Part shown: piece after piece, positions 7,035-48,103 of the stretch
Numbering within the stretch: position 1 is the stretch's first letter
How the letters are laid out: each line of letters opens with the position of its first letter
Source of the DNA: a virus
DNA length: 64,000 nucleotides
Virus record (IMG/VR): IMGVR_UViG_3300021197_001752
Location: 82,706 to 146,705 of that record
Strand: one strand, 5' to 3'
The notes under the pieces: model-generated
Told to the model about the DNA's origin: nothing
The model's database searches: none
The model's input: the letters and a program-made list of their open reading frames with translations, nothing else
Program-made: the position numbers and the translations under genes

Positions 7035-7058
7035 GTAAACTACTATATTTATTTGCCC

Positions 7059-8189: not shown

Positions 8190-8213
8190 ATCAATCTCTC
8201 TCCCTTACATCTT

Positions 8214-8587: not shown

Positions 8588-8995
8588 TTAAACACGAGAG
8601 GCCTCAACGGCGGCGACCCTGGCGGCTCTTCTTCTCTTGTTCCGTCGTATCCTCAATTGGCTAATCGACACATCGGTCACTCCGTACTCACCCTTGGCAG
8701 CAAGTCCTTCTCTGCCATGCCACATTCGGCTGAAAGCACTACCACTGTACTCATTACCTACTTCATCATAAAAGCCTAACTTATATAACTCTCTTGTAAC
8801 ATGACTATAGAAGTTTCTGTGTGTAGTAATCAACTTAACCCAACCTTCGATATCCTCCATAGAAGCAAACCAGTTACCTGGGGTTCTCCATTCTGTCTCT
8901 CCATTAGGATCATCTATGTTCTTCTGGATGTACTCATCTGCAATCCTATAGATGTGTTCAATCATTTCTTCACTAGGGTCTTCTAATTCAAACAT
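8588..8995 (-). CDS. Hypothetical protein, 135 aa
   Basis: 135 aa. An acidic N-terminus (MFELEDPSEEMIEHIY) and a basic C-terminal tail (RIRRNKRRRAARVAAVEASR). No recognised family, though the tail suggests nucleic acid contact. Weak ribosome binding site. Confidence 0.6.
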   Translation of the reverse strand: MFELEDPSEEMIEHIYRIADEYIQKNIDDPNGETEWRTPGNWFASMEDIEGWVKLITTHRNFYSHVTRELYKLGFYDEVGNEYSGSAFSRMWHGREGLAAKGEYGVTDVSISQLRIRRNKRRRAARVAAVEASRV

Positions 8996-9020
8996 TATTA
9001 TTTGTCGCCCGCTGCTTATA

Positions 9021-9209
9021 TTATAGGATCAAACTTAGCAGCACCAAAAGGCTTAGGATACCTAGCTTCATTTGGGTGCGCTTGTGGTTCTGCTCTAACA
9101 ACTCGACCTTGGATTCTGCATTGATTACTCTTGTATACAATCCCTCTACGTCGTTAGCGAAAATAGAGATTGTCTTGTTGAGCTTCTGCTCTATGTGATA
9201 GTTTGCCAT
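9021..9209 (-). CDS. Small tail-anchored membrane protein
   Basis: 62 aa: a heptad-rich helix (VINAESKVELLEQNHK) and a C-terminal membrane segment GILSLLVLLSLIL. AAAGGA precedes the ATG. This layout (coiled coil plus C-terminal membrane anchor) is common in phage lysis-accessory proteins, but nothing specific identifies it. Confidence 0.6.
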   Translation of the reverse strand: MANYHIEQKLNKTISIFANDVEGLYTRVINAESKVELLEQNHKRTQMKLGILSLLVLLSLIL

Positions 9210-9227
9210 TGTTCTTATGTTCCTTTG

Positions 9228-9416
9228 CTAGTAGATCTTTGGCTCGAAATAGGAAGCGGGCGCTCTGTTGTACCACTCCTCTTCTGTTTGTTCTTGTGTG
9301 GCTCGTTTGTATAATCTCATATACTCTTTGGTCCAAGACTTGCCTCTGTTGCTCCATCTCTTATGTTCTGCTAGGGCGTCGGTCCATGCTGGGTATCTAT
9401 CATATCGCTTATGCAT
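9228..9416 (-). CDS. Small basic hypothetical protein, 62 aa
   Basis: 62 aa, beginning MHKRYDRYPAWTDALAEHKR. Rich in Trp, Tyr, Arg and Lys. The ATG overlaps the TAA of the upstream small membrane protein gene (TAATG). An overlapping 67-codon frame was rejected because it ignores this junction. Not recognised. Confidence 0.55.
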   Translation of the reverse strand: MHKRYDRYPAWTDALAEHKRWSNRGKSWTKEYMRLYKRATQEQTEEEWYNRAPASYFEPKIY

Positions 9417-9553
9417 TAGTGTCTGTCCCTGTCATCATCAAAGCTTTCCATTAGATCTAAGAACCAATCAAAGAACTTATAGAGGTATCTGTTTATTACG
9501 ATGCCTGCTGCAAATGCTACAATCATTGTCGCTACTACTTTTAACGTATACAA
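9416..9553 (-). CDS. Small membrane protein, 45 aa
   Basis: 45 aa from TTG 9553 (GAGGA eight bases upstream); an ATG at 9526 is possible but has no binding site. One hydrophobic segment (LKVVATMIVAFAAGIVI) and an acidic tail ending ESFDDDRDRH. Function unknown. Confidence 0.5.
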   Translation of the reverse strand: MYTLKVVATMIVAFAAGIVINRYLYKFFDWFLDLMESFDDDRDRH

Positions 9554-9554
9554 C

Positions 9555-9719
9555 TTATAAGTCCTCTAGTATTGATTCTTTTATTTTTGTTACGTCGCCC
9601 AATGTTGCTCCGCCTTGGCTGATAAGCAGGTCGAGTAGAACAAGGGCAGCTTCTGCGCCTGGATGCTCGTCGCTATTCAACTGGTAGCGGATCAACCTGA
9701 TTACCTCTGCTCTCTTCAT
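9555..9719 (-). CDS. Small hypothetical protein, 54 aa
   Basis: 54 aa starting MKRAEVIRLIRYQLNSDEHP. The ATG overlaps the TGA of the PD-(D/E)XK gene (ATGA). Helical, no membrane segment. Co-translated with the nuclease module, so it could be an accessory part of it. Confidence 0.55.
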   Translation of the reverse strand: MKRAEVIRLIRYQLNSDEHPGAEAALVLLDLLISQGGATLGDVTKIKESILEDL

Positions 9720-10417
9720 CGCTTCAATTGGGCAATGCCACTGGGGGAGTCTAAGCTAATCGGTGACTTACCCTTGAACTTTAGTCGTGCCTGGGCCCGC
9801 AACAAACCGCTGACTCGCCGAACGCCTGCGGCGTTTAGTGTAGAGCCACTGCGCCCCGCTCGTAACTCAATGTCAATCTCGCCTTCGAGCTTGGGTACGG
9901 GTAGGTTCGCTGGGTTCTCACCCAAATAGAATAAGCCTGCTCCACCAATCTGCATATAGTGGATGCCCTTCTTCTTGTAGTGGTCAATAATAAAAGAAGC
10001 GTCCTCTTTGATTTTAGCGTTGATAGGTTTTAATAATCCTTTTTGCTTTGCTGCCGTCCAAGTGTACTTGTCGCAAGTGGTAGGGAACTTCTCTCCACCA
10101 ATGGCTGAGAGTAGTCGCTCAATAGCATCTACCTTTTGACCTAGTGCTGTGATGATTAGCTCTGCTGTGTTGCCATCTACGGCTTCACTTACCATCTCAA
10201 AGCCACCATTATCGTAGCGTACAGAGGTGCCTCCCATTTGTGCGTGGGAGTCCTGCTTCACTTCTAATAAATATTTTTTACCGCCGACAAAAAAATCTGC
10301 GTCGGCAAGTGTTGCCGATGCGCCTGCCCCCTCCTGAATATCGCCTGCGACCCCTGCCGCTTTCAAAGCTTCAATGACCGTTGTCTCGTAAGCAAACCCT
10401 TGTTCGTTATTACTCAT
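9716..10417 (-). CDS. PD-(D/E)XK nuclease-like protein
   Basis: 233 aa. Near residues 38-54 the sequence ADADFFVGGKKYLLEVKQD places an Asp about 13 residues before E-V-K, the core of the PD-(D/E)XK restriction-endonuclease fold. A basic C-terminal half (LLRAQARLKFKGK) could bind DNA. Its ATG overlaps the stop of the DUF262-like/HNH gene (10414-10417), so the two are probably made together and act as a pair. Fold inferred from motif only. Confidence 0.55.
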   Translation of the reverse strand: MSNNEQGFAYETTVIEALKAAGVAGDIQEGAGASATLADADFFVGGKKYLLEVKQDSHAQMGGTSVRYDNGGFEMVSEAVDGNTAELIITALGQKVDAIERLLSAIGGEKFPTTCDKYTWTAAKQKGLLKPINAKIKEDASFIIDHYKKKGIHYMQIGGAGLFYLGENPANLPVPKLEGEIDIELRAGRSGSTLNAAGVRRVSGLLRAQARLKFKGKSPISLDSPSGIAQLKR

Positions 10418-12390
10418 TGTGCTTCCATTTCTTCCTTTGAGTTATTCATCTCAACTAACTTCAATCGCTCTTCCTTGAGCTTGCGCTCTCTTGGATTCCT
10501 ACACTCGTTACAGTCCGATTTAACACCATCTAAATGTGACTTAGTGTTGTCTAAGGCATACTCACTCCATGGTATCATTTCGCCTGGCTTGCACTTGCTA
10601 CATTCCTTACCCGCAAAACTAAGCTCTCGATCGGTTAAGAAAAACAAGCGGTTTTCGTACAAATGCTCAAGAAGCAATGCCTTGCCTTCTTTGGGGTATA
10701 CTTTCTCCCAATACTCAAACCAATCAGTTGTTTGTCGTGAATTATTATCTTTAGCTAATACAAGCCAGAAGTTACTCTGATCATCACGACCGCCTCTAGC
10801 AAGGGGGATGTAGTGATCGACCTCACAGCGACCTTCCTCTACATCCTCAAGCTCTACGTTTGGAGCGCAAACGCCAGCATCAAATAACTCCATATGATCC
10901 TGCATACTGCTAGCGGCAGTTCGCCTGCACTTGATAGCTTGACTAGCTAACCACTGTGTTTCCCTCTTAGCGTCGTCAGCTTGTAAATAATCAAGCATAT
11001 ATTCAAGGCGCTTATTCATGCCCTTGATACGCCAGGCTGATTTCTTACTGTGTGCCCAAGAATAGATTTTTGGATTCTTTAGTTTTTTAGCCTTTTTCTC
11101 AGCAGCGTCTGCTGCTTTATCCCACTGCCTCACCCTGGTCTCTGAGAATGTGTATTTCTTATCCATCCGATCCTGCATTTTCTCATACATGGACCAGAAA
11201 GCCGAGGCGTCGTTTAGTTCAAAGCCCTGCTTATCAAATGCAACAAGTAAGCTCAAGATATCTGAACGATCGCTTTGATCCATATCACCAATAGGTTCAC
11301 CATCAGTTTTGACGTTTGCATTCCAGATCTTAACAAATTGAGCCCACACAGTGTTAGAAAACCTAGGGTAGTAGTGAACCACATCAGCAGACCTAATGTA
11401 CATGTCTTTAAGCCTGTGCTTATTGTTAATAGTGCTAGGTGTCTGCACCTTACCACCAGTAATCTCTCCAGAAACTCTTGCTTCGTGGTATTTCTCATAC
11501 TGCTGATAATCAGCGTACATACTGAATGCACAAGCAATCAACTCATCGTTGGAGTAACGATAGCAATTTGGATAAATGTCTTTATCCTTACTGCTGACCT
11601 TGAAGTACCTCACTGGTGCTGGGGCGTTATGTTCCGCCTTGTATGCCTTCCAAGTATTATATTCTTCTGCTGCATCGTCACGGGCCAGTATGCAAATCTG
11701 TGTATTTGACGCATTGCGATCTTCGGCATCATTTGTGGTCCCTGTAGAGTGCCAGCGACCGAAAGTCATGTAAATCTCTGGATTGGTGTAGCCAGCGAAA
11801 ACATCGACCGAAAAGGTGAAGTTATTAAGGTAATTCCTATGGTCAATCGTAAGTTCTGAGTAAAGAGCACCGTCAGGATACAGCTTTTTATGCTCGGGGT
11901 CGGTTGGATACCACTTAAATTCATCAGCGACGTATGCTGCGCCTGTCTCTACTCTGTTGTTACAGTCAAAAGACATCAACTCAAAAAGATCTTTAATTTT
12001 TTGATCAAGCTCCCCTCTGTCTTCGCCCTGGATCAAGTAGGCCCCATTAGCGTCTTTTGCCTGAAACTGTAACACCAGACTAACCAAAGTAAACGGCTGC
12101 AAGGGGATGCCACGCATTACCGAATCCATGTAAAAGCTCCGAGTTGCCTTATCCCAAAATCCTCGTCGCTGAAATCCCAAGTTCAGCCAGATCTTTTTAT
12201 AGATCGGCTCGACAGCAGGAACTATTACGCCTGATGGCAACGTCTCGGCAGGGGAACCGATAAACACCTGCCTAAAGGTCGGTCGATAAGTGGTTTGATG
12301 CCTGACCTGCCCACTCGATAGTGTAGCGATCTGGGCGTGATGCGTTGGTTTGATACCTTCATCCCATGTTGGTCTTACTGTGTTTGACAA
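10414..12390 (-). CDS. DUF262/GmrSD-like protein with C-terminal HNH nuclease
   Basis: 658 aa from a TTG with GAGGAGG eight bases upstream. Residues about 50-85 (FQRRGFWDKATRSFYMDSVM, then RGIPLQPF) match the DUF262 pattern 'QR.FW.......DS...G.P'. The usual DGQQR is degenerate (IQGEDRGE). Near residue 545, CEVDHYIPLARGGRDDQSN is an HNH nuclease core, followed by a possible Cys4 zinc finger (CSKC...CNEC). DUF262-HNH architecture is found in GmrSD-type type IV restriction. Here it pairs with a separate PD-(D/E)XK protein. Could be phage-borne inter-phage defence or host genome degradation. Confidence 0.65.
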   Translation of the reverse strand: MSNTVRPTWDEGIKPTHHAQIATLSSGQVRHQTTYRPTFRQVFIGSPAETLPSGVIVPAVEPIYKKIWLNLGFQRRGFWDKATRSFYMDSVMRGIPLQPFTLVSLVLQFQAKDANGAYLIQGEDRGELDQKIKDLFELMSFDCNNRVETGAAYVADEFKWYPTDPEHKKLYPDGALYSELTIDHRNYLNNFTFSVDVFAGYTNPEIYMTFGRWHSTGTTNDAEDRNASNTQICILARDDAAEEYNTWKAYKAEHNAPAPVRYFKVSSKDKDIYPNCYRYSNDELIACAFSMYADYQQYEKYHEARVSGEITGGKVQTPSTINNKHRLKDMYIRSADVVHYYPRFSNTVWAQFVKIWNANVKTDGEPIGDMDQSDRSDILSLLVAFDKQGFELNDASAFWSMYEKMQDRMDKKYTFSETRVRQWDKAADAAEKKAKKLKNPKIYSWAHSKKSAWRIKGMNKRLEYMLDYLQADDAKRETQWLASQAIKCRRTAASSMQDHMELFDAGVCAPNVELEDVEEGRCEVDHYIPLARGGRDDQSNFWLVLAKDNNSRQTTDWFEYWEKVYPKEGKALLLEHLYENRLFFLTDRELSFAGKECSKCKPGEMIPWSEYALDNTKSHLDGVKSDCNECRNPRERKLKEERLKLVEMNNSKEEMEAQ

Positions 12391-13839: not shown

Positions 13840-14070
13840 TCAATCACCAAACATATCTTTAGCTAAATCATTAGATGCTTTCTCGACTACGCTCTTCAAA
13901 GCTTCTAGTGCAGCATGAGCCTTGTACATATCAACATAGCTAGTGCAGCCACTGTCATACTCATGTGCATAGTCCATAGCCTTCTCGGCCCAATCCATGG
14001 CATCTTGAATCCTGCCTGCTGTCTCTTCAAAGCTTGTAATTGTTTTATCAATTTTAGTTGCCCAACCCAT
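13840..14070 (-). CDS. Small helical hypothetical protein, 76 aa
   Basis: 76 aa, mostly helical (TSFEETAGRIQDAMDWAEKA), acidic. AAAGGA upstream of the ATG. Lies 15 bases after the zinc-knuckle gene and is probably transcribed from the same promoter. Not recognised. Confidence 0.55.
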   Translation of the reverse strand: MGWATKIDKTITSFEETAGRIQDAMDWAEKAMDYAHEYDSGCTSYVDMYKAHAALEALKSVVEKASNDLAKDMFGD

Positions 14071-14085
14071 GTAGATTCCTTTCTC

Positions 14086-14997
14086 TTAGTCTTGCGACCA
14101 GTTGCTGACCTGGCTGATAAGCTGATTGATCTCTGGCTCAAGGCTAGCGTCAACAAGCCGCTCTCCCGAGTCGTCATCTTTGGTAACGACCCAGTGATAA
14201 ACACCAGAGCATTCGGGACTGATAAGGGTCACATTGTCACCCTTCCATCCGCTGTCCTTATTGACAGGACCGCCAACATAACCGCTGACCAAGCCGTGCC
14301 CGTCTGGCTCTTTCGCATAGTAGCGGTAGTGGCTTTGCTGCTTGAGGTCCTGAGGAATCCGAAGCATACCCTCTTGACCGTCAGGCTTGCGAACCTTGAT
14401 GATGGCTCCCTTGAACCAGTCGTTGAAATCACGTGGAATGCCCGACTCGTCGTCATAATTAGGCTGGGCAACCGCTTCCCAGTTGACACCCGTGACCATG
14501 CACATCACATTTTCATAGTCTTCAATCTTCCAGTTGTACTCTCTGAGCCGCATCAAAGCGCCTGGGACGACGCCAGCATTACTCAAGCAGGCAGCGAGAA
14601 CTCGATGAGCCAGACCTTGCATAGCGTCAGCATCAAGACGATGCTGCTTCTTGGCTGGGCAGGTACGAGCATTGTGTCCATGCTCACCGCAGAAGCCACA
14701 CTGGCGACCACGAGCATTCTTCTTGACCTGAGCAATCTTGCGCTCTTCAATCTCTTCCCAGAGCCAGCGGTCACGCCAGGAGATTTCGTCCTCATCGGCG
14801 TCTTGAATCTTAGCAGCCTCGTTGATCCTGCTGATCCAAGAGGTGGAAGCATAAGCAAGCTCATCTTCCGAGCGGTAAACGCCATACTTCTCAGCAAGTC
14901 TTTCAACTCTGGCGTGTGCTTCTTTGATTTGCGGGCAACCACGACGGTTGTGTCCGTATTGACCACAGTGTTGACATTGATTGGAACGATAGCCCAT
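14086..14997 (-). CDS. Protein with two CCHC zinc knuckles
   Basis: 303 aa. The N-terminus carries CQHCGQYGHNRRGC and residues about 98-111 carry CGFCGEHGHNARTC. Both are C-x2-C-x4-H-x4-C zinc knuckles, which bind single-stranded RNA or DNA. The C-terminal half contains an SH3-like stretch (FKGAIIKVRKPDGQEGMLRI). A strong shared promoter (15020-15047) and AAGGGAG precede it. Zinc knuckles are common in retroviruses and eukaryotic RNA-binding proteins but unusual in phages. Possibly an abundant early nucleic-acid-binding protein. Confidence 0.65.
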   Translation of the reverse strand: MGYRSNQCQHCGQYGHNRRGCPQIKEAHARVERLAEKYGVYRSEDELAYASTSWISRINEAAKIQDADEDEISWRDRWLWEEIEERKIAQVKKNARGRQCGFCGEHGHNARTCPAKKQHRLDADAMQGLAHRVLAACLSNAGVVPGALMRLREYNWKIEDYENVMCMVTGVNWEAVAQPNYDDESGIPRDFNDWFKGAIIKVRKPDGQEGMLRIPQDLKQQSHYRYYAKEPDGHGLVSGYVGGPVNKDSGWKGDNVTLISPECSGVYHWVVTKDDDSGERLVDASLEPEINQLISQVSNWSQD

Positions 14998-15019
14998 ATC
15001 TGTATCTCCCTTACAATTT

Positions 15020-15047
15020 ATATTACCACGGATAGGGGATACGTCAA
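15020..15047 (-). promoter_or_regulatory. Sigma70-like promoter with shared leader (copy 3)
   Basis: Minus strand: TTGACG (15042-15047), 16 bases, TAATAT (15020-15025) in GTGGTAATATAAATTGTAAG. Upstream of the zinc-knuckle gene. Confidence 0.75.
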
Positions 15048-15077
15048 GGAAACTGGCAAATATATTTTATTATTATT

Positions 15078-15662
15078 TTACCTGTCGCCCGTTGAGCCTA
15101 GTGCACCATCGCCTCTGCTTGTGTCGTCGTCATAAATATTATCTGATTCTACCAGGCTGATATTTGTTTCAACCTTTACGAAGACCGCCTGGGCAATCTT
15201 GTCGCCGTCGTGGAGAGTCTGGTTGCGGTGGGTAACGTTGTGAAGGTTCACGAAGATCTCACCAGTATACCCTCGGTCAACAACACAAGCACCCACAAGC
15301 AAGCCACGCTTACTAGCAATACCTGACTTGTTCTTGATCTCCAGCATGTAACCCTCAGGAACTTCGATCCTTAACCCAGTTGGGATTACGGATGAACCAA
15401 ACGGTAGCACGGTTTCAATCTGAGAATCTAGCTCGGGCTTTGGCGTCGGGCAAAAGAACAAGTCCATACCCGCATCAGTGCTGTGGGCCCTCACTGGCAT
15501 CTTAGCATTTTCATGAACTCGCTGTACTCTTACTTGCATATTCTTTTTCTCTACTTTCATTTTATTCCCTGGTCGGTCTGCGCAGGCTGGCTTCAAGTCA
15601 CACCCGCAGTCATAACATTCATCACTAACATTAAATAAATTACTTTGGTCACTGACTGACAA
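15078..15662 (-). CDS. dut: dUTP diphosphatase (trimeric dUTPase)
   Basis: 194 aa. Converts dUTP to dUMP and pyrophosphate, keeping uracil out of DNA. All five motifs are visible: AHSTDAGMDL, NKSGIASKRGL, CVVDRGYTGEI, GDKIAQAVF and SRGDGALGSTG (Phe of the last motif is Leu). The start used is TTG 15662 with GGAG upstream, giving a Cys-rich N-terminal extension (CYDCGCDLKPAC); ATG 15560 with AGGGA would give an ordinary-length enzyme. Overlaps the methyltransferase gene by 14 bases. Confidence 0.85.
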   Translation of the reverse strand: MSVSDQSNLFNVSDECYDCGCDLKPACADRPGNKMKVEKKNMQVRVQRVHENAKMPVRAHSTDAGMDLFFCPTPKPELDSQIETVLPFGSSVIPTGLRIEVPEGYMLEIKNKSGIASKRGLLVGACVVDRGYTGEIFVNLHNVTHRNQTLHDGDKIAQAVFVKVETNISLVESDNIYDDDTSRGDGALGSTGDR

Positions 15663-18578: not shown

Positions 18579-19247
18579 ATGAGTAATATTAATAAAAGAT
18601 CTAAGATGAAAAACAAAAGACTCAGATCGAAGTACGGGTGGGTTAAAAGCGAAGAGGAGTATACAAGTGACTGCTGCGCTGAAGGCGATAGAGATATGAA
18701 ATCTTCAGATCTTTGGCGTAAGCTTATGGAGTCACGAGGCATATACAGTGGGTATGGTCCTGGGGAGGAGGAGGGCGATGAGCCTGGTGGTCCTATTTCA
18801 ACAGAGGTCAACGATGATGCTAACATATTTGATACCCCAGAAGACCTAGGCCATAACGATGACCCAGATGATGGCGAGGATGTTGAAGCCAGTAAATCAG
18901 CCAAAGACCCCAACGCAAAAAAGCTTTTTAGGAAACTGATAGAAAAAACACACCCAGATAAAACCAACTCAAATGATAACGTAGAAGACTTCTTCAAAGC
19001 TAGAGAAGCATATGAAAACAGCAACCTAGCTGAACTTGTAGCTTTGTGCATGAAGTATAACATTGAAGTGCCTGAGTACTTAGTGGAAGCCGAGAACATA
19101 TCTTTGGAGCAATCTATTAAAGAGATGGAGCAATCTATCAACAGCAAACAGAGTACGCTTGGTTATCTATGGTTCATGGCGAATAGCGACGAGGAAAAGC
19201 AAAGACTACTAGATATGGTGATGGCTCAGTACGGTGACCGCTTCTAG
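18579..19247 (+). CDS. J-domain (DnaJ-like) protein
   Basis: 222 aa, read opposite to its neighbours. Residues about 110-150 read KKLFRKLIEKTHPDKTNS and FFKAREAYENSNLAELVAL, a J-domain with the HPD motif that stimulates Hsp70 ATPases. The N-terminal 100 residues are acidic and low-complexity. No Hsp70 is seen in the window, so it may redirect host DnaK. If transcription starts at the CTATTTATA box, a second ATG at 18606 is the likelier start. The 3' end overlaps a convergent gene by 39 bases. Confidence 0.7.
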   Translation: MSNINKRSKMKNKRLRSKYGWVKSEEEYTSDCCAEGDRDMKSSDLWRKLMESRGIYSGYGPGEEEGDEPGGPISTEVNDDANIFDTPEDLGHNDDPDDGEDVEASKSAKDPNAKKLFRKLIEKTHPDKTNSNDNVEDFFKAREAYENSNLAELVALCMKYNIEVPEYLVEAENISLEQSIKEMEQSINSKQSTLGYLWFMANSDEEKQRLLDMVMAQYGDRF

Positions 19248-26717: not shown

Positions 26718-28301
26718 TTATTCCACTTGTTCCCGTAAAACCGAGCAGTTTGTAGTAATTAAAATACCCGCTGCTGAGGAAGCGTTTGTAACTGCTGATT
26801 TTGTTACTTTCACTGGGTCTATAACACCCACCTCGATCAAGTCCTCGAAGCGACCTGAGCGGACATTGAAACCTATCAACTCAGTGCCCTCCTCTGTAGG
26901 GATCGAGTTGATAACAACGTCACTAGAGATGCCAGCATTATCTAAGATCTGTCGTAGCGGTGAGTAGCAAGCTGTGATCAAGGTTTGATACCCAAGCAAC
27001 TCACCCCGAGTCTCAAAGTTTCTCTCTGGTAAAGCCATTGCCGCTCTGATCAGACTGATGCCGCCGCCTGGTACTACACCTTCTTCTTGGGCGCTGCGCA
27101 CAGCCTCAAGCGCATCTTCAAATCGATGCTTCTTCTCTTCGACCTCTACCTCTGTTGCACCGCCGACCTGTAGCAGAGACACCCCTGATGCAAGACGGGT
27201 GATCCTTTCCTGTATCTTACCTGCCTGATGAAGATCTTCCGTAGCCTCAACTTCGTTCTTCAAGGTCTCCACTAAAGAATCCATCTCCTCAAAGTTGGTG
27301 TTGCCGCCAACAAAGGTTGTCCTAACCTTAAGGATCTCTACACTCTTACATGTACCTAAGTGCTCTAACTTGATATCGCTTAGACGGATGCCACTGTCAC
27401 GACTGATAAATGTGCCTCCTGTTGTCGTAGCAATATCAGATAAGATAGCTCGGCGCTCCTCGCCGTATTCAGGTACCTTGATTGCAGCGATCTTCATTCC
27501 GTTACGCATACGGTTGATAATCAAGGCTGCCAGCAATTGACCAGAGATCTCTTCGGCGGCAATGATACAAGGCCTTCCATCTCTAGCGATGACCTCAAGT
27601 ACTGGTAGCATCTCCTCCAGTGAATCAAGCTCGTGATCTGTTGTCAGCACTAAAGCATTATTATATTCTACTGCATTTCTTCTGTGGTCAGTAACAAACT
27701 TAGCTGAAACATAACCTGCTGCAACTTTGAAACCCTCAATGACGTCTAGCTTGGTCTCTAACGACCTGCTCTCTTCAATCTTAACTGCTCCGTCCTTACC
27801 TGCTGCAACTACCGCTGATGCGACTAGCTTACCAATAGTGCTGTCCCCATTCGCTGAGACTGTGGCAACATGCTGGATGTCTTCCTCTGACGAAATAGGA
27901 CTAGACATAGTATCTAGCGTACTCAGGATATCCTCAGTAGCCATGTCAATGCCACGTTTCATCTCAACGCCTGAAACACCTACCGCTAATTGTTTCTGAG
28001 CTTCCTTGAGCAAGTCACGGGCAATCACGACAGTCGTAGTCGTGCCATCGCCACTAGCCTTCTCCGTTTCCATGCTAGCCTGGCGAACCACGTCAATCCC
28101 TGCCTGCTCAAAGTCATCCTCCACTTGCACTACTCGTGCGACACTGACGCCATCCTTAGTTACAATGGGTGGTGCCCCTCGTTGATACAGGATAACATTC
28201 TGTCCTGCTGGTCCGAGCGTTGAGCTAACAGCGTTTGCTAGCTTGTTCACCCCTGCCAATAATTTGTTCTGTGTCTCTGCGCCAAATAATATATTTGCCA
28301 T
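26718..28301 (-). CDS. groEL: GroEL-like chaperonin (Cpn60)
   Basis: 527 aa, near full length (E. coli GroEL is 548). ATP-binding motifs TLGPAGQNV, GDGTTTTVV and the C-terminal-domain VVPGGGISL are intact. It lacks the Gly-Gly-Met tail. It would fold phage proteins such as capsid or tail subunits. A GroES-like partner lies elsewhere (47616-47873). GGGGAG precedes the ATG and a strong terminator follows. Confidence 0.9.
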   Translation of the reverse strand: MANILFGAETQNKLLAGVNKLANAVSSTLGPAGQNVILYQRGAPPIVTKDGVSVARVVQVEDDFEQAGIDVVRQASMETEKASGDGTTTTVVIARDLLKEAQKQLAVGVSGVEMKRGIDMATEDILSTLDTMSSPISSEEDIQHVATVSANGDSTIGKLVASAVVAAGKDGAVKIEESRSLETKLDVIEGFKVAAGYVSAKFVTDHRRNAVEYNNALVLTTDHELDSLEEMLPVLEVIARDGRPCIIAAEEISGQLLAALIINRMRNGMKIAAIKVPEYGEERRAILSDIATTTGGTFISRDSGIRLSDIKLEHLGTCKSVEILKVRTTFVGGNTNFEEMDSLVETLKNEVEATEDLHQAGKIQERITRLASGVSLLQVGGATEVEVEEKKHRFEDALEAVRSAQEEGVVPGGGISLIRAAMALPERNFETRGELLGYQTLITACYSPLRQILDNAGISSDVVINSIPTEEGTELIGFNVRSGRFEDLIEVGVIDPVKVTKSAVTNASSAAGILITTNCSVLREQVE

Positions 28302-35782: not shown

Positions 35783-36700
35783 TTATTCTTCTTCTGAAGA
35801 TTCTTCTGAAGGTGCATCACCTGAAGTGTCCTTAGCAGCAAGCTGTACGTTCATCCAAGATTGACCCAATGGGTTTTCAACTGGGGCTTCGGCGAATCTC
35901 TGCACTGATCTTGTCGATTCCTTGGTTGGTGGTACTGGCTCGTTGTTGACAACGATTGTAAAGTTATTGGCACCAAATAACTCTTGATAGTTTTCTTTAT
36001 TGTCCTGAACTTGTTGCCACATCTTCTCTACTTCTTCAGGGTCTAGCTTTCTTTCTCTCTTGGCATTTTGTTTTAGTGCACGTTCAAGCGAGGTGTCCAC
36101 AAAGATCATGTAGGTGTCGTAGCCAAGATCAATTAGGCGTTGGCGCTTTTTCACCATCTTGCTATAATCTTTACCAGTGCCGTCAATCAGCATCCCCAGG
36201 CGACCTGCGGCATAATAGCCCTGAAGCTTTGCTAACTTACCTTTAGCGACGGCTCGGGTAGAATCGCTTCGGTCGCCCAATAGGCCGATCTGGGCTGCAA
36301 GTTCTGCTGCATCCTGACCTTTATACTCGCCTGCTTCTTTAGCAAGCTGAGAGATGGCACCCAAGTCAGCAAGTGGGATACCCATCTTCTTTAGCCCGAT
36401 CTCGAATAGGTTATCACTGTTAACATATTTAAGCCCATAGCGACCCACGAAAGAAGAAGCGTCGAAGGTCTTAGCCTGACCAGCTTCTCGGGCATCAAAC
36501 ATTACATCAGCCACATAAGACTTGCCACTGCCTGGTCCGCCCGCCGTAAATACAGCTTTGAGAATGCCCTTATCGTAGACACCCTCATCCAGTAGTTCTT
36601 CGTTGACTACCCCAGGATGATCAAGTAAATAACTTTGACGCTCCTGTAGCATCTCGCCCTGTGCTTCTTTGATTAGTTGCTTAAGTTGTTTGATATCCAT
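35783..36700 (-). CDS. Zeta-toxin-like P-loop kinase with IKEA N-terminal tag
   Basis: 305 aa. Walker A AGGPGSGKSYVADVMF lies near residues 52-67; GMLIDGTGKDY and IFVDTSLERAL fit the zeta toxin/UDP-GlcNAc kinase-like P-loop family. The N-terminus MDIKQLKQLIKEAQGEML is a variant of the shared tag (LIKE followed by Ala, as in T4 capsid targeting sequences). The C-terminus is acidic. It could phosphorylate a nucleotide, sugar or end group; a virion-packaged toxin is an inference. Confidence 0.65.
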   Translation of the reverse strand: MDIKQLKQLIKEAQGEMLQERQSYLLDHPGVVNEELLDEGVYDKGILKAVFTAGGPGSGKSYVADVMFDAREAGQAKTFDASSFVGRYGLKYVNSDNLFEIGLKKMGIPLADLGAISQLAKEAGEYKGQDAAELAAQIGLLGDRSDSTRAVAKGKLAKLQGYYAAGRLGMLIDGTGKDYSKMVKKRQRLIDLGYDTYMIFVDTSLERALKQNAKRERKLDPEEVEKMWQQVQDNKENYQELFGANNFTIVVNNEPVPPTKESTRSVQRFAEAPVENPLGQSWMNVQLAAKDTSGDAPSEESSEEE

Positions 36701-36705
36701 GCTAC

Positions 36706-37632
36706 TTATTTACTTCCCATTTCTAACAAGACATTCCTAAATTCTTCTTGAATGATTTTGTTTAGAGCACTGTTTGTCATTTTGATATGACGTTGCTTGC
36801 TTTCGCCAAATGGTAGCTCGCCCTGACCTTCTGGCTCGGCTGCCAAACCTTTGGTCTGACTCTTATAAAGGCTGCCGCCTTGCGCCAATAGATTCAACAC
36901 ACCCTTTACGCTGCCGATGTTTCCATGACCACCTCTTAGTTTCTTGAGGGCATCATATTTCTCGTCTTCGAGCTTATCATCACCAAAGGGGAACTGTACA
37001 CTAAGGTTGAATGCGGTTTTAGATGTGTCGCCTCGGTTTGGAATAGCCTTGAGTTCTATCTCAATATGCTCTGGGTAGAATATATCATACCTCAAAACAC
37101 CTGTGGTGATTGACTCTATGTGAGCAATTGGCTTGTTCTTCATATCTGGAATAATATTTGCCAGCACTTTAGCTAAGTGATCTTCATACTCTACAGCAGC
37201 TTTGACCAATGCATCATAAAGGTCGTTGTCTCTACCACGATCTAGCAAGCCAGCGTGGATGGCCTTGTTCGTCGCCGCCAGGTTCATCTCGCCTTGGGTT
37301 TCTTCTGCTAGCTCTTGTCTAATAATATTTTGTAGTTGTTGTTTTGTGATTTTCATTTTATTCTCCCTTTCATCTAGACCGCCATACATTGTGACTATCT
37401 GTACCGCAGCCTTGTTTACGAGGTCAAAAGGTATCTTATCAAATCTACTCTGGAGATTTTTGATAGTGTATTGTATCTTTTCTTCTTTGTTGTTGCCTTT
37501 GGTAAACTTCTTAATTTTGTCAACACCACCAAATTGCTTAATATAAACGTCAACCATTTTCTGCACGTCCGCTTCGTCGGTGCTGAGCGCCTCTCTAATC
37601 ATTTGACGTATTTGATCTTTGGTAATCTTCAT
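36706..37632 (-). CDS. Double-tagged fusion protein with internal start
   Basis: 308 aa. Residues 1-16 (MKITKDQIRQMIREAL) and again residues 93-109 (MKITKQQLQNIIRQELA) carry the shared tag, with no stop between. The internal ATG at 37356 has AAAGGGAG just upstream, so it looks like two adjacent genes fused in frame, or one gene giving two products. Near the C-terminus ALNKIIQEEFRNVLLEM is a third similar stretch. The middle region (DLYDALVKAAVEYEDHLAKV) is not recognised. Confidence 0.65.
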   Translation of the reverse strand: MKITKDQIRQMIREALSTDEADVQKMVDVYIKQFGGVDKIKKFTKGNNKEEKIQYTIKNLQSRFDKIPFDLVNKAAVQIVTMYGGLDERENKMKITKQQLQNIIRQELAEETQGEMNLAATNKAIHAGLLDRGRDNDLYDALVKAAVEYEDHLAKVLANIIPDMKNKPIAHIESITTGVLRYDIFYPEHIEIELKAIPNRGDTSKTAFNLSVQFPFGDDKLEDEKYDALKKLRGGHGNIGSVKGVLNLLAQGGSLYKSQTKGLAAEPEGQGELPFGESKQRHIKMTNSALNKIIQEEFRNVLLEMGSK

Positions 37633-37636
37633 TTTG

Positions 37637-37810
37637 CTATCCTTCGCTATCTACCAGTCTGTCTAGGATAGCTTGCAGTCTTTCATATTGGGACTTATGT
37701 GCCTGCACGGCTTTCTTAAGCTCTGCTATAACATCATTCATCGTGTCTTTGTCACTATCTGAGATTTCTTCCCTAATAATCTTTCTTAGCTCGCCTTTGC
37801 TAATCTTCAT
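37637..37810 (-). CDS. Small IIREE-tagged protein, 57 aa
   Basis: 57 aa beginning MKISKGELRKIIREEISDS, then a single long helix (VIAELKKAVQAHKSQYERLQ). The ATG overlaps the TAA of the upstream tagged gene (TAATG). Member of the shared-tag family. Confidence 0.7.
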   Translation of the reverse strand: MKISKGELRKIIREEISDSDKDTMNDVIAELKKAVQAHKSQYERLQAILDRLVDSEG

Positions 37811-38058
37811 TAGTTCTTGCCGTCTTCATTTGCTATTGCTTGCATTATCATACGCAGTGAATCGGCGTCCTCCTGAAGCGGGTGATAATCGCCTTCTTGG
37901 TTTTCAATATACTCCGTAAGAGCATTATAGCCGTCTTCCAGAAGATCAAGGGCTCTGGCGAGAGGACCGCCGTAGGAGTCATAAGGGGCATCACCCTCAA
38001 ACTCTTTGAGTAACTCTTCTTTAATAATCTTTTGTAGTTCTTGTTTGGTGATTTTCAT
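37810..38058 (-). CDS. IIKEE-tagged protein, 82 aa
   Basis: 82 aa beginning MKITKQELQKIIKEELLKEF, then acidic helices (LARALDLLEDGYNALTEYIE). ATGA junction with the upstream tagged gene. Body not recognised. Confidence 0.7.
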   Translation of the reverse strand: MKITKQELQKIIKEELLKEFEGDAPYDSYGGPLARALDLLEDGYNALTEYIENQEGDYHPLQEDADSLRMIMQAIANEDGKN

Positions 38059-38246
38059 TTTCTATCTGCTCCCCTGGATAAGGTGTTTAGAGCATTATAA
38101 ATTTCTTTCATCCGAGAATCCTCAAAACTAAGTTCGTTACTTGTGTCATCCACAATGTCTTGTAAAGCGCCCTGTGCGCTGGCTAGCACCTGTGAAGTAT
38201 ACGCTTCTTTGATTATGCTTCGTAGCTCTTCTTTAGTGATTTTCAT
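38055..38246 (-). CDS. IIKEA-tagged protein, 63 aa
   Basis: 63 aa beginning MKITKEELRSIIKEAYTSQ; IIKE followed by Ala is the form closest to T4 capsid-targeting cleavage sites. The rest is one or two acidic helices. Body not recognised. Confidence 0.7.
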   Translation of the reverse strand: MKITKEELRSIIKEAYTSQVLASAQGALQDIVDDTSNELSFEDSRMKEIYNALNTLSRGADRK

Positions 38247-38249
38247 TTC

Positions 38250-38627
38250 TTAGCCCCAGTCGTCTTCGTCTGGTAGACGGCGACCTGACTCTTTGGTTAG
38301 CATCTGAGCGGCTTCCACAGCTATTTGCTCGTCTGCGCCTTGGTCCTCTAGTTCCTTCTTGAACTCCATAAACACACCAGTGGTTGCTTTAAAACGTTCA
38401 TCGCTCAGCATCGCCTTTTGACCGTCGCTGAGAGTCTTGCCTAGAGCCACAGCCCTAAGGACATAAGTGTATTGGTATGTCTCTTTGTCAGTCATTTCTT
38501 CCTTATCCAAGCCAAGCTCCTTGAGGATTGCTTTGACAACCTCGTCTCGACGCTCAAGCTGGTTACCTTTATATGTGACTTCTGTAATATACTTGCGCCA
38601 CTCTGATAATAATTCTTTCATCAACAT
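38250..38627 (-). CDS. Protein with MKELLSEWRKYITE N-terminus
   Basis: 125 aa. The N-terminus MLMKELLSEWRKYITEVTY resembles a second class of short N-terminal leader with L-S-E and I-T-E cut-site matches. The body is helical and charged, ending RRLPDEDDWG. Start ATG 38627 or 38621. In the tagged cluster; function unknown. Confidence 0.6.
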   Translation of the reverse strand: MLMKELLSEWRKYITEVTYKGNQLERRDEVVKAILKELGLDKEEMTDKETYQYTYVLRAVALGKTLSDGQKAMLSDERFKATTGVFMEFKKELEDQGADEQIAVEAAQMLTKESGRRLPDEDDWG

Positions 38628-38722
38628 GCCCCTTCGCAGCTAGCGCAAGCGCAACAGCCGCAGCAGCAGCAACAGTGGCTGCTATTGAATAGATTAACTA
38701 ATTTGTGTAATAGGTTTTTCAT
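38621..38722 (-). CDS. Tiny cysteine-rich protein, 33 aa
   Basis: 33 aa: an N-terminal amphipathic helix (MKNLLHKLVNLFNSSH) followed by CCCCCGCCACASCEGAC, ten Cys in 17 residues. The ATG overlaps the stop of the upstream tagged gene (ATGA) and its end overlaps the next gene's start. Metal binding or multiple disulfides are possible. Not recognised. Confidence 0.55.
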   Translation of the reverse strand: MKNLLHKLVNLFNSSHCCCCCGCCACASCEGAC

Positions 38723-38988
38723 GAGTCCATCTCCAAGGCTAACATGATCTCGTCCATTGCCTTAGAGATGCTCCTAGCAGCATCATCAAGATAACTCTGC
38801 GCATCTTGGATTGGAACACTGCCACCCATCTTATCAACAAGGTCGTTTGAAAGTGAACCGATCTTTTGACGCATCTCCATTAAAGCTGCAACATGTGGCT
38901 GGTCTGCGTGAGGGTTTTTACCAAGGTCAGCGTAGCGCCCGACCTCTTCTTTGATAATCTGCCTTAGCTTTGCTTTGGTGATCTTCAT
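38719..38988 (-). CDS. IIKEE-tagged protein, 89 aa
   Basis: 89 aa beginning MKITKAKLRQIIKEEVGRY, then a helical body (AALMEMRQKIGSLSNDLVDK). Body not recognised. Confidence 0.7.
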   Translation of the reverse strand: MKITKAKLRQIIKEEVGRYADLGKNPHADQPHVAALMEMRQKIGSLSNDLVDKMGGSVPIQDAQSYLDDAARSISKAMDEIMLALEMDS

Positions 38989-43372: not shown

Positions 43373-44173
43373 TTATCCGATCAACCTTCCTATGTCCGAA
43401 GTGATTGCTAATGCCATTATTCCTACCACAAATGCTAAACCGACATAGGACAACCAAGTACGAGTTTTGTACTTGACCTTTCGCCCCATGACTGCCTCTG
43501 TTATAGAGAATACCACATGTCCGCCATCTAGTAAAGGGATTGGTAACAAATTAATTAAACCTAAGTTAATACTCAAGAAAGCTATCCACTGATATATAAA
43601 GCCATTGTCTTTAGTTTGGGTTGATCTTGCCTGTGCCTGCTCTGTGATCTCATAGATAGCTACGGGTCCGCCAACGTCTTTTACTGACACCCCTCTTTCC
43701 TTGATCACATCTATTGCCTTGTATATAGTATAATACATCTTGTGTGTTGTGTCAACACTTGCTTTCCAAGCGTATGGCGCACTAACCGTGCCCACGTTTG
43801 AACCATCTGGTGCCTTCACATCTGGCCAAGGCATTCCCCAAAGGTACAAAAAGAATATAGCATAAGGTAGGGCGAGGTTAGTGACGGGTCCTGCTAAAGC
43901 AGTTATCATTCTTTTAAGTGGGTGTACCGCCCAAAAGGATCTAGGATTCCTTGTTGCATTATTATAATCCTCTTCTCCCTCGAACTTAACATAGCCGCCA
44001 AGAGGCAATATACCAAGAGACCACTTGTTGCCAAATGCATTGAATGAAAAAATTTTCGGTCCAAAGCCCACTGAGAACTCTTTGATGCCGATGCCGCATA
44101 ATCGACCGACAACATAATGCCCCAACTCATGAATGAAAACTAATGATAATATTATTACTAATAAGAGAAGCAT
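43373..44173 (-). CDS. Site-2 protease (M50 family, RseP-like)
   Basis: 266 aa, polytopic membrane zinc protease. HELGH is at 15-19 and the second motif LLPIPLLDGGHVVF lies near residue 210-225. It lacks a clear PDZ domain between them (cellular RseP is about 450 aa). S2P proteases cut membrane-bound regulators. Neighbours are a membrane coiled-coil protein and a trypsin-like lipoprotein, which together resemble a two-step intramembrane proteolysis pathway. Confidence 0.85.
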   Translation of the reverse strand: MLLLLVIILSLVFIHELGHYVVGRLCGIGIKEFSVGFGPKIFSFNAFGNKWSLGILPLGGYVKFEGEEDYNNATRNPRSFWAVHPLKRMITALAGPVTNLALPYAIFFLYLWGMPWPDVKAPDGSNVGTVSAPYAWKASVDTTHKMYYTIYKAIDVIKERGVSVKDVGGPVAIYEITEQAQARSTQTKDNGFIYQWIAFLSINLGLINLLPIPLLDGGHVVFSITEAVMGRKVKYKTRTWLSYVGLAFVVGIMALAITSDIGRLIG

Positions 44174-44637
44174 TGAAAGTCACCATACCTTTGTATTTTA
44201 TTTTTGTCATCTTTTCGCACAGGTATTTCGGGTAGCCCGTAACCTGGTATTATCCATCTTTCTTTTGGCTTACATTCAATTGGCTGCCAAAACTTCAGAT
44301 GATTATGAATTTTCTTATTCTCTTCTTTTAGTTTATTTATATCATTGCTCTGCTGAGTGATTACTCTCTCCAGATTAAGCACTGCGTGGCTTGCAGCTTT
44401 ATGCAAATTCTCTTCTAAATTTATCTGATTATAAAGATAAAGCAAGAATCCCATAAAAACAGCACAAACTATTATGGCTACTACTGATGTCCACATAGCC
44501 GCAGAAAGATAGTTTGGCTTTGATACTGGCTCTGGTGTGACGTCATAAAACTGTGGCTCTTGATCTTGAACAGAAGCATAAGCGTTCTCTTTCATCCTTC
44601 TGTAAGCTTCCCGTTCTCTATCGTTCATGGGCGGCAT
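44158..44637 (-). CDS. Single-pass membrane protein with periplasmic coiled coil
   Basis: 159 aa from ATG 44637. Cytoplasmic N-terminal 45 residues, membrane helix WTSVVAIIVCAVFMGFLLYL, coiled coil (AVLNLERVITQQSNDINKL) and a C-terminal domain with two Cys. Between a site-2 protease and a serine protease, so it could be their substrate; unproven. Confidence 0.6.
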   Translation of the reverse strand: MPPMNDREREAYRRMKENAYASVQDQEPQFYDVTPEPVSKPNYLSAAMWTSVVAIIVCAVFMGFLLYLYNQINLEENLHKAASHAVLNLERVITQQSNDINKLKEENKKIHNHLKFWQPIECKPKERWIIPGYGLPEIPVRKDDKNKIQRYGDFQCFSY

Positions 44638-45533
44638 CACGGTCTCGGGGGCTCAATGGTTTTTATTTCTGTAGAGTCCAAGCTCATGTTCTTTCTTGCC
44701 CACAGGTCCATTTCCGAAGAGACTACTGTATCAATCACAAATGTACGTATTGAATTCAGGTTCGATCCTAGACCTACACTCTCCATAGCTGGGAAGCCTG
44801 CAAAGATCATTGACACCAATTCACCCTTTGCATTAAGGATAGGTGACCCACTAGACCCTGGCTTTGTGGGTAATGTGAAAAACATATAACTTTTGTATCC
44901 TACGCCAGCATAATAGCCATCGAACATAAGCAGCATCCCTGGTCCAAATATGCCCCTTGGTGCTGCTGGGTTGTATACCTTCTCGCCCATTCTTGGCATC
45001 TTCTTAGAGATTGGTATTACCCTAGGGCGATGGCGAGCCTTGTAACCAGTAACCTTCAGCACGCATACATCAGCGGTCATATCATATGCAACAATCTCTG
45101 CCCCCTTTAGAACACCCCGATAAGATAGTGTAACGTATGTACTAGCCACTGTAGTCAAGGAGAAGCCATCAATTTTCTTATCTTTTATTTTCTTCTGACA
45201 AGAGTGACCCGCTGTCAAAGCATACGCTATCGTAGGGTCTACATCACTATGACCTATGATAGCCCCTGAGGAAGTATATCTAACAGCACCGACTGTGCAT
45301 TTCTCACCTTTTTTGCCATCCTTGTCTGTTATCGTCTGACATGCTTGAATGGCATGGGTAGCCTCTACACGCACGAATGAAGCAAATGGCATTCTCTCGT
45401 TAGGCTGGGCAGTTTCTGTAAGGGATTGCTTGGTAGAATAGCATCCACCCATGCAACCCATTTGAAATAACACCAGCAGAGTGGCTAATCTTAGTATTGG
45501 TATTTTTACTCTCATGTAGTAAATATGAGGCAT
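44637..45533 (-). CDS. Trypsin-like serine protease, lipoprotein or exported
   Basis: 298 aa (or from Met 7). The N-terminus ILRLATLLVLFQMGCMGGC is a lipoprotein-like signal. The chymotrypsin-fold triad is H110 in ALTAGHSC, D155 in YDMTADVCVLKV and S228 in KPGSSGSPI. Probably a periplasmic protease. Divergent from the exported-protein cassette on the plus strand and upstream of the site-2 protease. Confidence 0.75.
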   Translation of the reverse strand: MPHIYYMRVKIPILRLATLLVLFQMGCMGGCYSTKQSLTETAQPNERMPFASFVRVEATHAIQACQTITDKDGKKGEKCTVGAVRYTSSGAIIGHSDVDPTIAYALTAGHSCQKKIKDKKIDGFSLTTVASTYVTLSYRGVLKGAEIVAYDMTADVCVLKVTGYKARHRPRVIPISKKMPRMGEKVYNPAAPRGIFGPGMLLMFDGYYAGVGYKSYMFFTLPTKPGSSGSPILNAKGELVSMIFAGFPAMESVGLGSNLNSIRTFVIDTVVSSEMDLWARKNMSLDSTEIKTIEPPRP

Positions 45534-45604
45534 TTTGGTGTTTTGTTGACTAGTTACGAATGTTTATGACACTTCTGTGTTCAAAGGTGGGATTCTAACA
45601 AGTT

Positions 45605-45901
45605 ATGAAATTACTATCAATCATATCAATAATATCGTTTTTACTACTGGCTCCTTCGGCTTCTCTCGGGAATAACGTCAGTGTCGCTAACCAGAAGAGG
45701 GCTTCTTTGGTTATTGAACAGGCTTGGAAAGAGGCTACTGAGGGTCGTTGGAAATATACCAAAGACGATGTAAATATTACCAAGCAAGTTCTAGTTACTC
45801 TTGTAAAGGGTGTGAAGTTTATGGATATAGAAACTCACAAACCCCTACATAAGGAGATAACTAAACTTCCTTTCGTAACCTATGCTGGGGAAGCAAAGTA
45901 A
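45605..45901 (+). CDS. Exported small protein, 98 aa
   Basis: 98 aa, plus strand. MKLLSIISIISFLLLAPSAS is a signal peptide. The mature part is not recognised (ASLVIEQAWKEATEGRWKYT). AAAGGTGGG lies 12 bases before the ATG. First gene of a three-gene cassette of exported proteins. Confidence 0.6.
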   Translation: MKLLSIISIISFLLLAPSASLGNNVSVANQKRASLVIEQAWKEATEGRWKYTKDDVNITKQVLVTLVKGVKFMDIETHKPLHKEITKLPFVTYAGEAK

Positions 45902-45910
45902 CATGCAAGG

Positions 45911-46378
45911 ATGTCTAAAAGAACAAAAGTATTAGCTCTAACACTTTTTCTAATCTCTTTTGGGACTCTATTATCTTTTCTTATTTTTGCCGAACCTACT
46001 CCGCAAATTATAATTCCTAAACAAACAACATATTATTTAGAAGGTCAGCAACGTAATTGTTTGTGGGTTATCCAGACCCTAGACACCTTAGATACTGGTG
46101 ATAACGTCATGACCCGTATTGCCATTGGGATACCATCAGCTACTAAAGTCGGGGTCATCAAAGGCGTAATACAAGCCTCAAAAGGAAACCAATTACTTTT
46201 AGCATTCGCAATGCCAGGAATGGAGGCAAACCCTCCTATTATATTAAGTGCGGACATTCCCGATACCCTACCAGCAAAACAATTATCTTTTAGCTGGCTT
46301 GGTAGTGAGATGTTCAAAATGAAACTTTTTTATGACCAGAAGGCTTGCTTAGAGAGCGTAGCCGAATGGATAAAGTAA
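45911..46378 (+). CDS. Exported or membrane-anchored protein, 155 aa
   Basis: 155 aa. LALTLFLISFGTLLSFLIF is a signal anchor; the rest is a beta-rich extracytoplasmic domain with two Cys (RNCLWVIQ, KACLESV). Its stop overlaps the start of the MopE/VWA gene by 13 bases. Not recognised. Confidence 0.6.
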   Translation: MSKRTKVLALTLFLISFGTLLSFLIFAEPTPQIIIPKQTTYYLEGQQRNCLWVIQTLDTLDTGDNVMTRIAIGIPSATKVGVIKGVIQASKGNQLLLAFAMPGMEANPPIILSADIPDTLPAKQLSFSWLGSEMFKMKLFYDQKACLESVAEWIK

Positions 46379-47619
46379 CTAAACTATTACTGATAGTTCT
46401 ACTAAGCTCCTGCCAGGCGTGCATTGAGGACGAGGAACTAGTACCACTTGAGTGTCGCCCTGGTGAACAAGTATTGTGTAACCATGAAGGGATAGATTAT
46501 CCTCAAGCTGACACAGACCCCGTACCCGATCGAGCAGGTCAGTGCTCCTACGGCTTGAGGACATGCGATTTTCGTGGCTGGTCTGAATGCGTTGGAGCTA
46601 TGGGACCCTCAGAAGAAGTTTGTGATGGGATAGACAATGATTGTGATTCCGTAATAGATGAGACTTATCCCGAGGAGAGTCAGTTATGCGGCTTTGTAGA
46701 GGGTGCAAACTATGGGGTAGGCATATGCAACATTGGGGTCATGACTTGCGATAATGGAACTGTTTATTGTAGTGGGCACGTTGGTCCTTCTGATGAAATC
46801 TGTGATGGTTTAGATAATAATTGCAACGGGACAACAGATGAGGGAATAGCAAATTCTACAGCCATCGTATGTTACGAAGGCCCAGAAGGTACAATGGCAG
46901 TAGGCGAGTGCCGTGCTGGTGTTCGATATTGTACGGATGGAAGCTTCAATGTTCCCTGTGATGGACAGATACTACCTAGTATTGAAATTTGTGATAACAG
47001 GGATAACGATTGCGATGGGGTAGTCGATGAGGGGTTCGATACTCGTGGTGTAGATTTGGTTTTTGTTATCGACGTATCTGGCTCATTTGACCAAGAGATA
47101 GAGTCAATGATACAGGGTATCGCTCCCCTTTTAGACGACCCAATAACGAGCACATTTCGATTTGGACTGGTTGCTGTAGGTACCGCAGGCAATGGCGAGA
47201 TAAGACCTGCTCATCAGTATGCAAGGATGGTTTCTGATTTTGTCGCTGCTGATGAATTCCTGGAGATCTTAGAAGCCGCCAGGATGATACAGAGTTCTGG
47301 GGTGGAGCCAACCATTGACACAATGTTCTGGTCGATGACTCTCTACCCTTTCAACTGGAGGGCTGAAGCACAAAAGGTAATTATAACGATGACTGATGAG
47401 GTAGCTCAATCTGTCTTAGGAAAAGACTGTGCAGAGATCTCTGCGATTGCCCAAGACGATCTTTTTGAGCTTTTTGTTTTTGCCCTACGACCACACCAAA
47501 ACACATTCCTAGCTTGTGTTCACGGAGAGCACCGAAGGCTATTCACTCCCGCTGTCAACTCTGAGACAGTGTTCTTGCAGATAAGGCAAATATTTGACGA
47601 TCTATGTATGGGCGATTAG
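46366..47619 (+). CDS. Lipoprotein with MopE-type Cys/Asp repeats and VWA domain
   Basis: 417 aa from ATG 46366. KLLLIVLLSSC is a signal peptide with lipobox Cys. Three repeats of the MopE/'putative metal-binding' type follow: EVCDGIDNDCDSVIDE, EICDGLDNNCNGTTDE and EICDNRDNDCDGVVDE. Then a VWA domain with FVIDVSGSFDQEIESM (DxSxS) and later IITMTDEVAQS. Such proteins are surface lipoproteins in Myxococcota and relatives. In a phage it is likely a host-envelope modifier, acquired from the host lineage. Ends four bases into the convergent co-chaperonin gene. Confidence 0.8.
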   Translation: MDKVTKLLLIVLLSSCQACIEDEELVPLECRPGEQVLCNHEGIDYPQADTDPVPDRAGQCSYGLRTCDFRGWSECVGAMGPSEEVCDGIDNDCDSVIDETYPEESQLCGFVEGANYGVGICNIGVMTCDNGTVYCSGHVGPSDEICDGLDNNCNGTTDEGIANSTAIVCYEGPEGTMAVGECRAGVRYCTDGSFNVPCDGQILPSIEICDNRDNDCDGVVDEGFDTRGVDLVFVIDVSGSFDQEIESMIQGIAPLLDDPITSTFRFGLVAVGTAGNGEIRPAHQYARMVSDFVAADEFLEILEAARMIQSSGVEPTIDTMFWSMTLYPFNWRAEAQKVIITMTDEVAQSVLGKDCAEISAIAQDDLFELFVFALRPHQNTFLACVHGEHRRLFTPAVNSETVFLQIRQIFDDLCMGD

Positions 47620-47873
47620 CCAGTAACACAAACCACACGATTCTCTAACAACAGATGGTATTGCCTGCCCTCATAGTGAATAATTTCTGGGTCGGTACTG
47701 TGCGCAACCACTACATCACCCACGTTCAACCCTAGACTACAATCAGTAGAGGTAGCGGTAATTTTATAAGCTATATGAGACTTCTCTTGGTATTCTTCTG
47801 GAATGATAAATGATCCCGTGTCTTGTTGCTCTTCGTAGGGTTCTACCATCAGTCTTCTGTTAACTGGCTTCAT
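47616..47873 (-). CDS. groES: GroES-like co-chaperonin
   Basis: 85 aa from ATG 47873 (GGAGAG nine bases upstream, ATGA junction). MKPVNRRLMVEPYEEQQDTG, SFIIPEEYQEKS, LNVGDVVVAH and YHLLLENRVVCV follow the Cpn10 order: 'P..DR..V......G...P......V..VGD.V......L..E.D..A'. About the size of T4 gp31-class co-chaperonins. It is the probable partner of the GroEL at 26718-28301, 20 kb away. Confidence 0.7.
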   Translation of the reverse strand: MKPVNRRLMVEPYEEQQDTGSFIIPEEYQEKSHIAYKITATSTDCSLGLNVGDVVVAHSTDPEIIHYEGRQYHLLLENRVVCVTG

Positions 47874-48103
47874 GATAATTCTCTCCATTGCTCGGTAAGC
47901 ATTATAAATTGTGTCTGTGTTACTGTGCTCCATTCACGCTCGTTGCAGTGCTTGCAGTAGCACTCTACAGCAACATTGCCCTCTGGGAGAGCACGAGTGC
48001 GCCCAGAGGGAAGCCAGCTATGCTTGATCTTGTTCTGCTTTGGTTGGCGTGCACAAAAACCTTCTTTCAGGCTTTCAGGCATAATAAAGTTTAGGGTAGC
48101 CAT
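47870..48103 (-). CDS. Small zinc-ribbon-like protein, 77 aa
   Basis: 77 aa. A single CYCKHCNERE gives one Cys pair, with an earlier GFCARQ. Beta-rich C-terminus. GAAAGGAGC upstream of the ATG, ATGA junction with the co-chaperonin gene. Function unknown. Confidence 0.55.
   Translation of the reverse strand: MATLNFIMPESLKEGFCARQPKQNKIKHSWLPSGRTRALPEGNVAVECYCKHCNEREWSTVTQTQFIMLTEQWRELS

Follow-up and report, generated by a model that had tools for sequence, protein, structure and literature searches.

Several described systems resemble parts of the locus reported here. T5 Llp (PMC9586334) and Rtp45 (PMC12685063) are phage lipoproteins that block the receptor. Like them, the MopE-VWA lipoprotein described below would be a phage-encoded lipoprotein at the outer membrane of the infected cell, a location proposed here, but Llp and Rtp45 are small single proteins without a VWA domain, repeats or a dedicated protease. 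MopE-repeat surface proteins (PF11617), found in Myxococcota and others, are exported and carry the same Cys- and Asp-rich repeat, the repeats being up to about 50% identical; most of these bacterial matches belong to far larger proteins, and they stop short of the VWA domain considered here. The HtrA/DegS proteases share export, a Trypsin_2 domain and a full catalytic triad with the protease of our locus (tryp), whereas tryp is a probable lipoprotein with no PDZ domain found and is the fixed partner of a VWA lipoprotein. Finally, as in the DegS-RseA-RseP system, a trypsin-like exported protease has an M50 protease and a single-pass protein nearby; unlike that system, the locus has no PDZ domain and no recognised anti-sigma substrate, and its M50 protease is only sometimes adjacent.

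A conserved four-gene unit in large phages

The window is a 64,000-base stretch (G000:C1:82706-146705) of an IMG/VR virus record of 146,705 bases. Phage genes include those for a baseplate-wedge-type protein, a DnaE-type polymerase, a DnaB-like helicase, ribonucleotide reductase (RNR), a GroES-like protein and GroEL. No integrase was detected in the 146,705-base record, which may be incomplete, and the phages carrying the unit are large, uncultured and probably lytic. The phage's own GroEL and GroES-like co-chaperonin are encoded far apart in the genome (window 26718-28301 and 47616-47933). Outside the window, at about 47857-64307 of the full record, is an island of sugar-nucleotide and glycosyltransferase-type genes (UDP-GlcNAc 2-epimerase, APS kinase, GDP-mannose dehydratase family and glycosyltransferase 2; L004, L005). 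The minus strand carries nearly all other genes in the window. Another credible plus-strand gene (18579-19247) is conserved in four relatives; in G002 and G008, distant relatives of it are found directly downstream of MopE-VWA and convergent with it. A plus-strand candidate at 13915-15135 looks antisense, as stops break its frame in relatives. The features of the locus are:

43373-44173, minus strand: M50 (RseP-type) site-2 protease (PF02163, 1e-56)
44158-44640, minus strand: single-pass membrane protein with weak spanin (Rz-like) similarity (phrog_739, 2.2e-04)
44637-45533, minus strand: tryp, probable lipoprotein trypsin/HtrA-like serine protease, 298 aa, the divergent arm of the unit
45534-45604, no strand: divergent intergenic region with conserved sequence blocks, probable promoter region
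45605-45901, plus strand: P2, small exported protein with an N-terminal signal sequence, 98 aa
45911-46378, plus strand: P3, exported and probably anchored by an N-terminal TM helix, beta-rich domain, 155 aa
46366-47619, plus strand: MopE-VWA, probable lipoprotein, 417 aa (PF11617 three times, PF00092)
about 46600-47600, plus strand: allele-exchanged segment, from DNA similarity to L008
46615-47034, plus strand: three MopE repeats, residues 84-99, 144-160 and 207-223 (Pfam, sequence)
47053-47514, plus strand: VWA domain (Pfam)

The original prediction described three exported proteins at 45605-47619 on the plus strand, against the direction of nearly all other genes, ending with a lipoprotein that combines three MopE repeats with a VWA domain. 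All three open reading frames were confirmed, and the Pfam matches of the last lie above the curated cut-offs, in support of the predicted surface-protein type. The predicted span misses the divergent protease gene at 44637-45533 (minus strand). Relatives conserve every gene of the extended unit, so the cassette is more than a chance arrangement.

Relatives of MopE-VWA are encoded in at least 194 stretches of viral contigs. Unit loci were retrieved by tblastn, followed by HMM scans with all four families, and the order tryp(-) P2(+) P3(+) MopE-VWA(+) was found in 176 of the 176 retrieved IMG/VR loci with all four genes; these represent about 67 distinct contigs, as several scans fetched the same contig. 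Every locus with P3 in the HMM scan also had the other three genes, and partnerless protease matches comprised two at contig ends (L363, L375) and five that are more distant (e.g., L370). The four genes form a stable phage module, conserved as one unit.

The unit occurs in at least three genomic settings. The window's phage group has it among replication genes, with DnaE/M50 on one side and GroES/RNR on the other; a second group has it surrounded by fibre-like structural genes, and in a third setting (L331, L352) it adjoins M50. MopE-VWA is opposed in direction to its neighbours in the loci inspected. The RNR-side interval is without the unit in L088, L089 and L145. More distant phages have longer MopE-VWA genes (about 620-750 aa) without P2 and P3, some of which are located between RNR and DnaE in the same direction as their neighbours.

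MopE-VWA most likely starts at ATG 46366, which overlaps the P3 stop, rather than at TTG 46345. Its N-terminus has a lipobox-like LSSC followed by a second Cys, suggesting that it is probably a lipoprotein. The Cu-binding_MopE match covers three stretches (EVCDGIDNDCDSVIDE, EICDGLDNNCNGTTDE and EICDNRDNDCDGVVDE; E 5.9e-14, 52.4 bits vs. a cut-off of 27), and the VWA match has E 1.4e-05 (25.9 bits vs. 23.8). The MIDAS residues D236, S238, S240 and D344 are invariant in 37 relatives, with T or S at position 316. Variation within the VWA domain is concentrated at residues 271-290, 301-310 and 351-370, and the MIDAS core is nearly fixed. The structural model is of moderate quality (pLDDT 75), and in a Foldseek comparison the VWA part of it resembles VWF A domains and those of integrin I type.

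The protease matches Trypsin_2 (E 1.9e-11), its profile matches the HtrA structure 1l1j (E 4.3e-09), and the catalytic triad H110, D155 and S228 is invariant in 34 relatives; no PDZ domain was matched by Pfam at E up to 1. In P2, residues W41, W49, P89 and F90 are invariant in 29 relatives, as are C50, W52 and C146 of P3 in 37. The AlphaFold2 model of P3 (pLDDT 90.8) has a helix at residues 3-26 followed by strands. No confident structural relative of this fold was identified, the best matches being lipocalin/calycin-like barrels (E 0.14), and a profile match to type IV pilins was discarded (E 0.25).

Bacterial repeats and exchanged alleles

Bacterial relatives were searched for in bacterial and archaeal contigs and in 141 sampled genomes of one MopE-rich phylum, 56 of which had matches. 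In the collections searched, bacterial matches to MopE-VWA are confined to the repeats (about residues 58-230) and leave out the VWA domain. The one exception is L176, from a Uhrbacteria bin, whose weak match (22-29%) is the only bacterial one to run into VWA. Full-length relatives occur in viral contigs. Isolated phages gave no MopE-VWA homologue and only a short, non-significant match to tryp, and P3 was not found in ten MopE-rich bacterial genomes in a search that had no positive control. A literature search for MopE plus VWA in phages also found nothing. By these sequence comparisons the MopE repeat occurs in bacteria as well, and the whole MopE-VWA gene is phage-borne so far as searched.

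Within phages, the lipoprotein gene has a history different from that of its neighbours. The window and L008 are 87% identical in the VWA domain, and only 36% and 33% in protease and P3; the window and L013 are 68% identical in VWA, vs. 86% in protease and 95% in DnaE. DNA similarity between the window and L008 climbs at about 46600 and drops after about 47600. AU tests reject a single VWA clade both for the window with L013 and L017 (p = 0.0046) and for all seven window-locus domains (p = 2e-84), and for the protease they reject a grouping of the window with L008, L007, L010 and L011 (p = 8e-61); the groups were picked after the identities were seen, and the p-values are descriptive. Across 29 units, the correlation of identities is 0.94 for tryp and P3, 0.08 for tryp and VWA, and 0.09 for tryp and MopE, the latter two rising to about 0.5 when five distant units are added. 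Because the identity of MopE-VWA is uncoupled from that of its neighbours (r = 0.08 vs. 0.94), there is a solid case from sequence comparison that its alleles move between phage lineages, with protease and P3 descending together. The exchange may simply reflect easy recombination of a well-conserved gene.

Promoter region and accessory genes

The intergenic region of the unit is conserved within phage groups, and the window, L013 and L017 share an identical block, GTTTTGTTGACTAGTTACGAATGTTTAT. The second group's region contains ACTA(A/T)TTA, an exact motif that is lacking in the window's. CTATTTA is the top enriched 7-mer upstream of genes in a second-group phage (8 of 15 occurrences on that strand), and many of the genes downstream of it are virion-type or leader-bearing. 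A sigma-70 promoter scan did no better than on shuffled sequences. In the second group the unit sits behind the phage's own promoter-like motif, and the sharing of this motif with virion-type genes may imply late expression.

The leaders in question are near-identical N-terminal sequences (MKITKSQLRKIIKEEL..., MKKLLTEWRKFLKEE...) found before unrelated bodies in many ORFs, at about 1900-11360 and 118488-121693 of G000 (the latter at about 35783-38988 of the window) and in L246-L248 and L086. They resemble the capsid-targeting sequences of T4 internal head proteins. A AACTATTTA-like motif is enriched upstream of virion-type and leader-bearing genes (G000, L246-L248) and may be the late promoter element of this lineage.

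In the window, the genes for tryp, the single-pass protein and M50 overlap. The last two are overlapping or adjacent and stay paired in both main groups, and only the window's group has them joined to the unit. Linkage of M50 to the unit is seen in that group and in L331 and L352; second-group genomes have M50 at another place. M50 was found in five unit-bearing records, the largest (127-191 kb) included, and in none of five tested records with a solo MopE-VWA, an absence that is weak evidence as many records are fragments. Our literature search for site-2 proteases in marine phages found nothing.

Possible roles in the infected cell

Export signals and domain content together argue for a role of the unit in the envelope, and the envelope role in the original prediction is plausible. 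The same prediction regarded the cassette as a moron taken from the host lineage, a reading for which the abundance of MopE repeats in Myxococcota-type genomes and the reversed orientation could be cited. A recent host origin is now largely refuted and highly improbable: sampled bacteria share only the MopE repeats, with L176 as the weak exception, full-length relatives were found only in phage contigs, related phages hold distant MopE-VWA genes, the unit and its phages share a long history, the record has no detected integrase, and in the second group a promoter-like motif of the phage itself precedes the unit. Apparent restriction of full-length homologues to phages would also fit a virion component, such as an adhesin or tail part, and the second group's unit does lie among fibre-like structural genes. 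We nevertheless regard this as very improbable, given the Sec and lipoprotein signals, an orientation opposite to the structural genes, and the location among replication genes in the window's group. It is improbable, too, that MopE-VWA serves as an adhesion or aggregation factor that sticks infected cells together or to new hosts and so spreads progeny. The resemblance of the VWA fold to integrin I and VWF A domains and the MopE repeats in large surface proteins of Myxococcota-type genomes agree with this, but the protease and small partners are left unexplained, and the surface exposure it calls for is putative.

The unit could be a lysis or release module, in which the exported protease and the lipoproteins act with the spanin-like 44158-44640 protein at the end of infection, either to weaken the outer membrane or to clear proteins from the envelope. 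That this weakly Rz-like protein adjoins the unit, that the protease is placed in the periplasm, and that the second group's promoter-like motif is common to virion-type genes all agree with lysis; we consider it unlikely, as the second group has its spanin-like gene far from the unit, neither a holin nor an endolysin gene was seen next to the unit, and lysis systems do not usually include a VWA binding domain. A proteolysis cascade, with tryp as site-1 and M50 as site-2 protease acting on P3 or the 44158-44640 protein to signal or adjust envelope stress, would account for the overlapping genes in the window, the adjacent M50 in L331 and L352, and the presence of M50 in five unit records vs. 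none of the five solo records. However, M50 is unlinked in the second group, a Pfam search of the unit region gave no anti-sigma or PDZ domain, and MopE-VWA would be left unexplained, so that such a cascade seems quite unlikely.

The best single guess is superinfection exclusion, by analogy with T5 Llp and Rtp45 and from the exchange of binding-domain alleles. In this reading, which we favor while rating it somewhat short of an even chance, the four genes encode an envelope-acting module made during infection that hinders adsorption or DNA entry of further phages. The module would be read divergently from its own promoter region, and all four products would be exported to the envelope of the infected cell. 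There, tryp, as an HtrA-like serine protease lipoprotein, would mature the system or remove envelope proteins, with P2 and P3 as exported partners, of which P3 probably has its anchor in the inner membrane. MopE-VWA, probably at the outer membrane, would be a metal-dependent binding protein (through its MIDAS and probably calcium-binding repeats) that attaches to, or masks, a target in the periplasm or at the surface, and later phages would be hindered in adsorbing or in delivering their DNA as a result. Gene anatomy, intact catalytic and MIDAS residues, conservation as a unit and exchange of MopE-VWA alleles are established; we infer the outer-membrane location, complex formation, timing and exclusion function. 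Remodelling of the infected-cell surface is consistent with the sugar-nucleotide and glycosyltransferase genes on the phage. On the other hand, known exclusion lipoproteins are small single proteins and not a four-gene unit with a protease, which argues against exclusion. Superinfection exclusion is often early, and the possible late expression of the unit likewise counts against it, as does the possibility that alleles are exchanged only through easy recombination of the gene.

More speculatively, and on balance doubtful, the unit may represent a proteolytic, modular system for exclusion or envelope reprogramming, in which swapped VWA alleles give specificity, in company with an HtrA-like protease, two partners and sometimes an RseP-type protease. 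Such a system had no counterpart in the literature searched. Most genes with which uncultured large phages act on the envelope lack annotation, and the unit adds to them a MopE-VWA family that appears phage-specific. A fixed protease-partner-adhesin unit with a freely exchanged putative adhesin is a testable candidate for a role in phage-phage competition or in control of the host surface.
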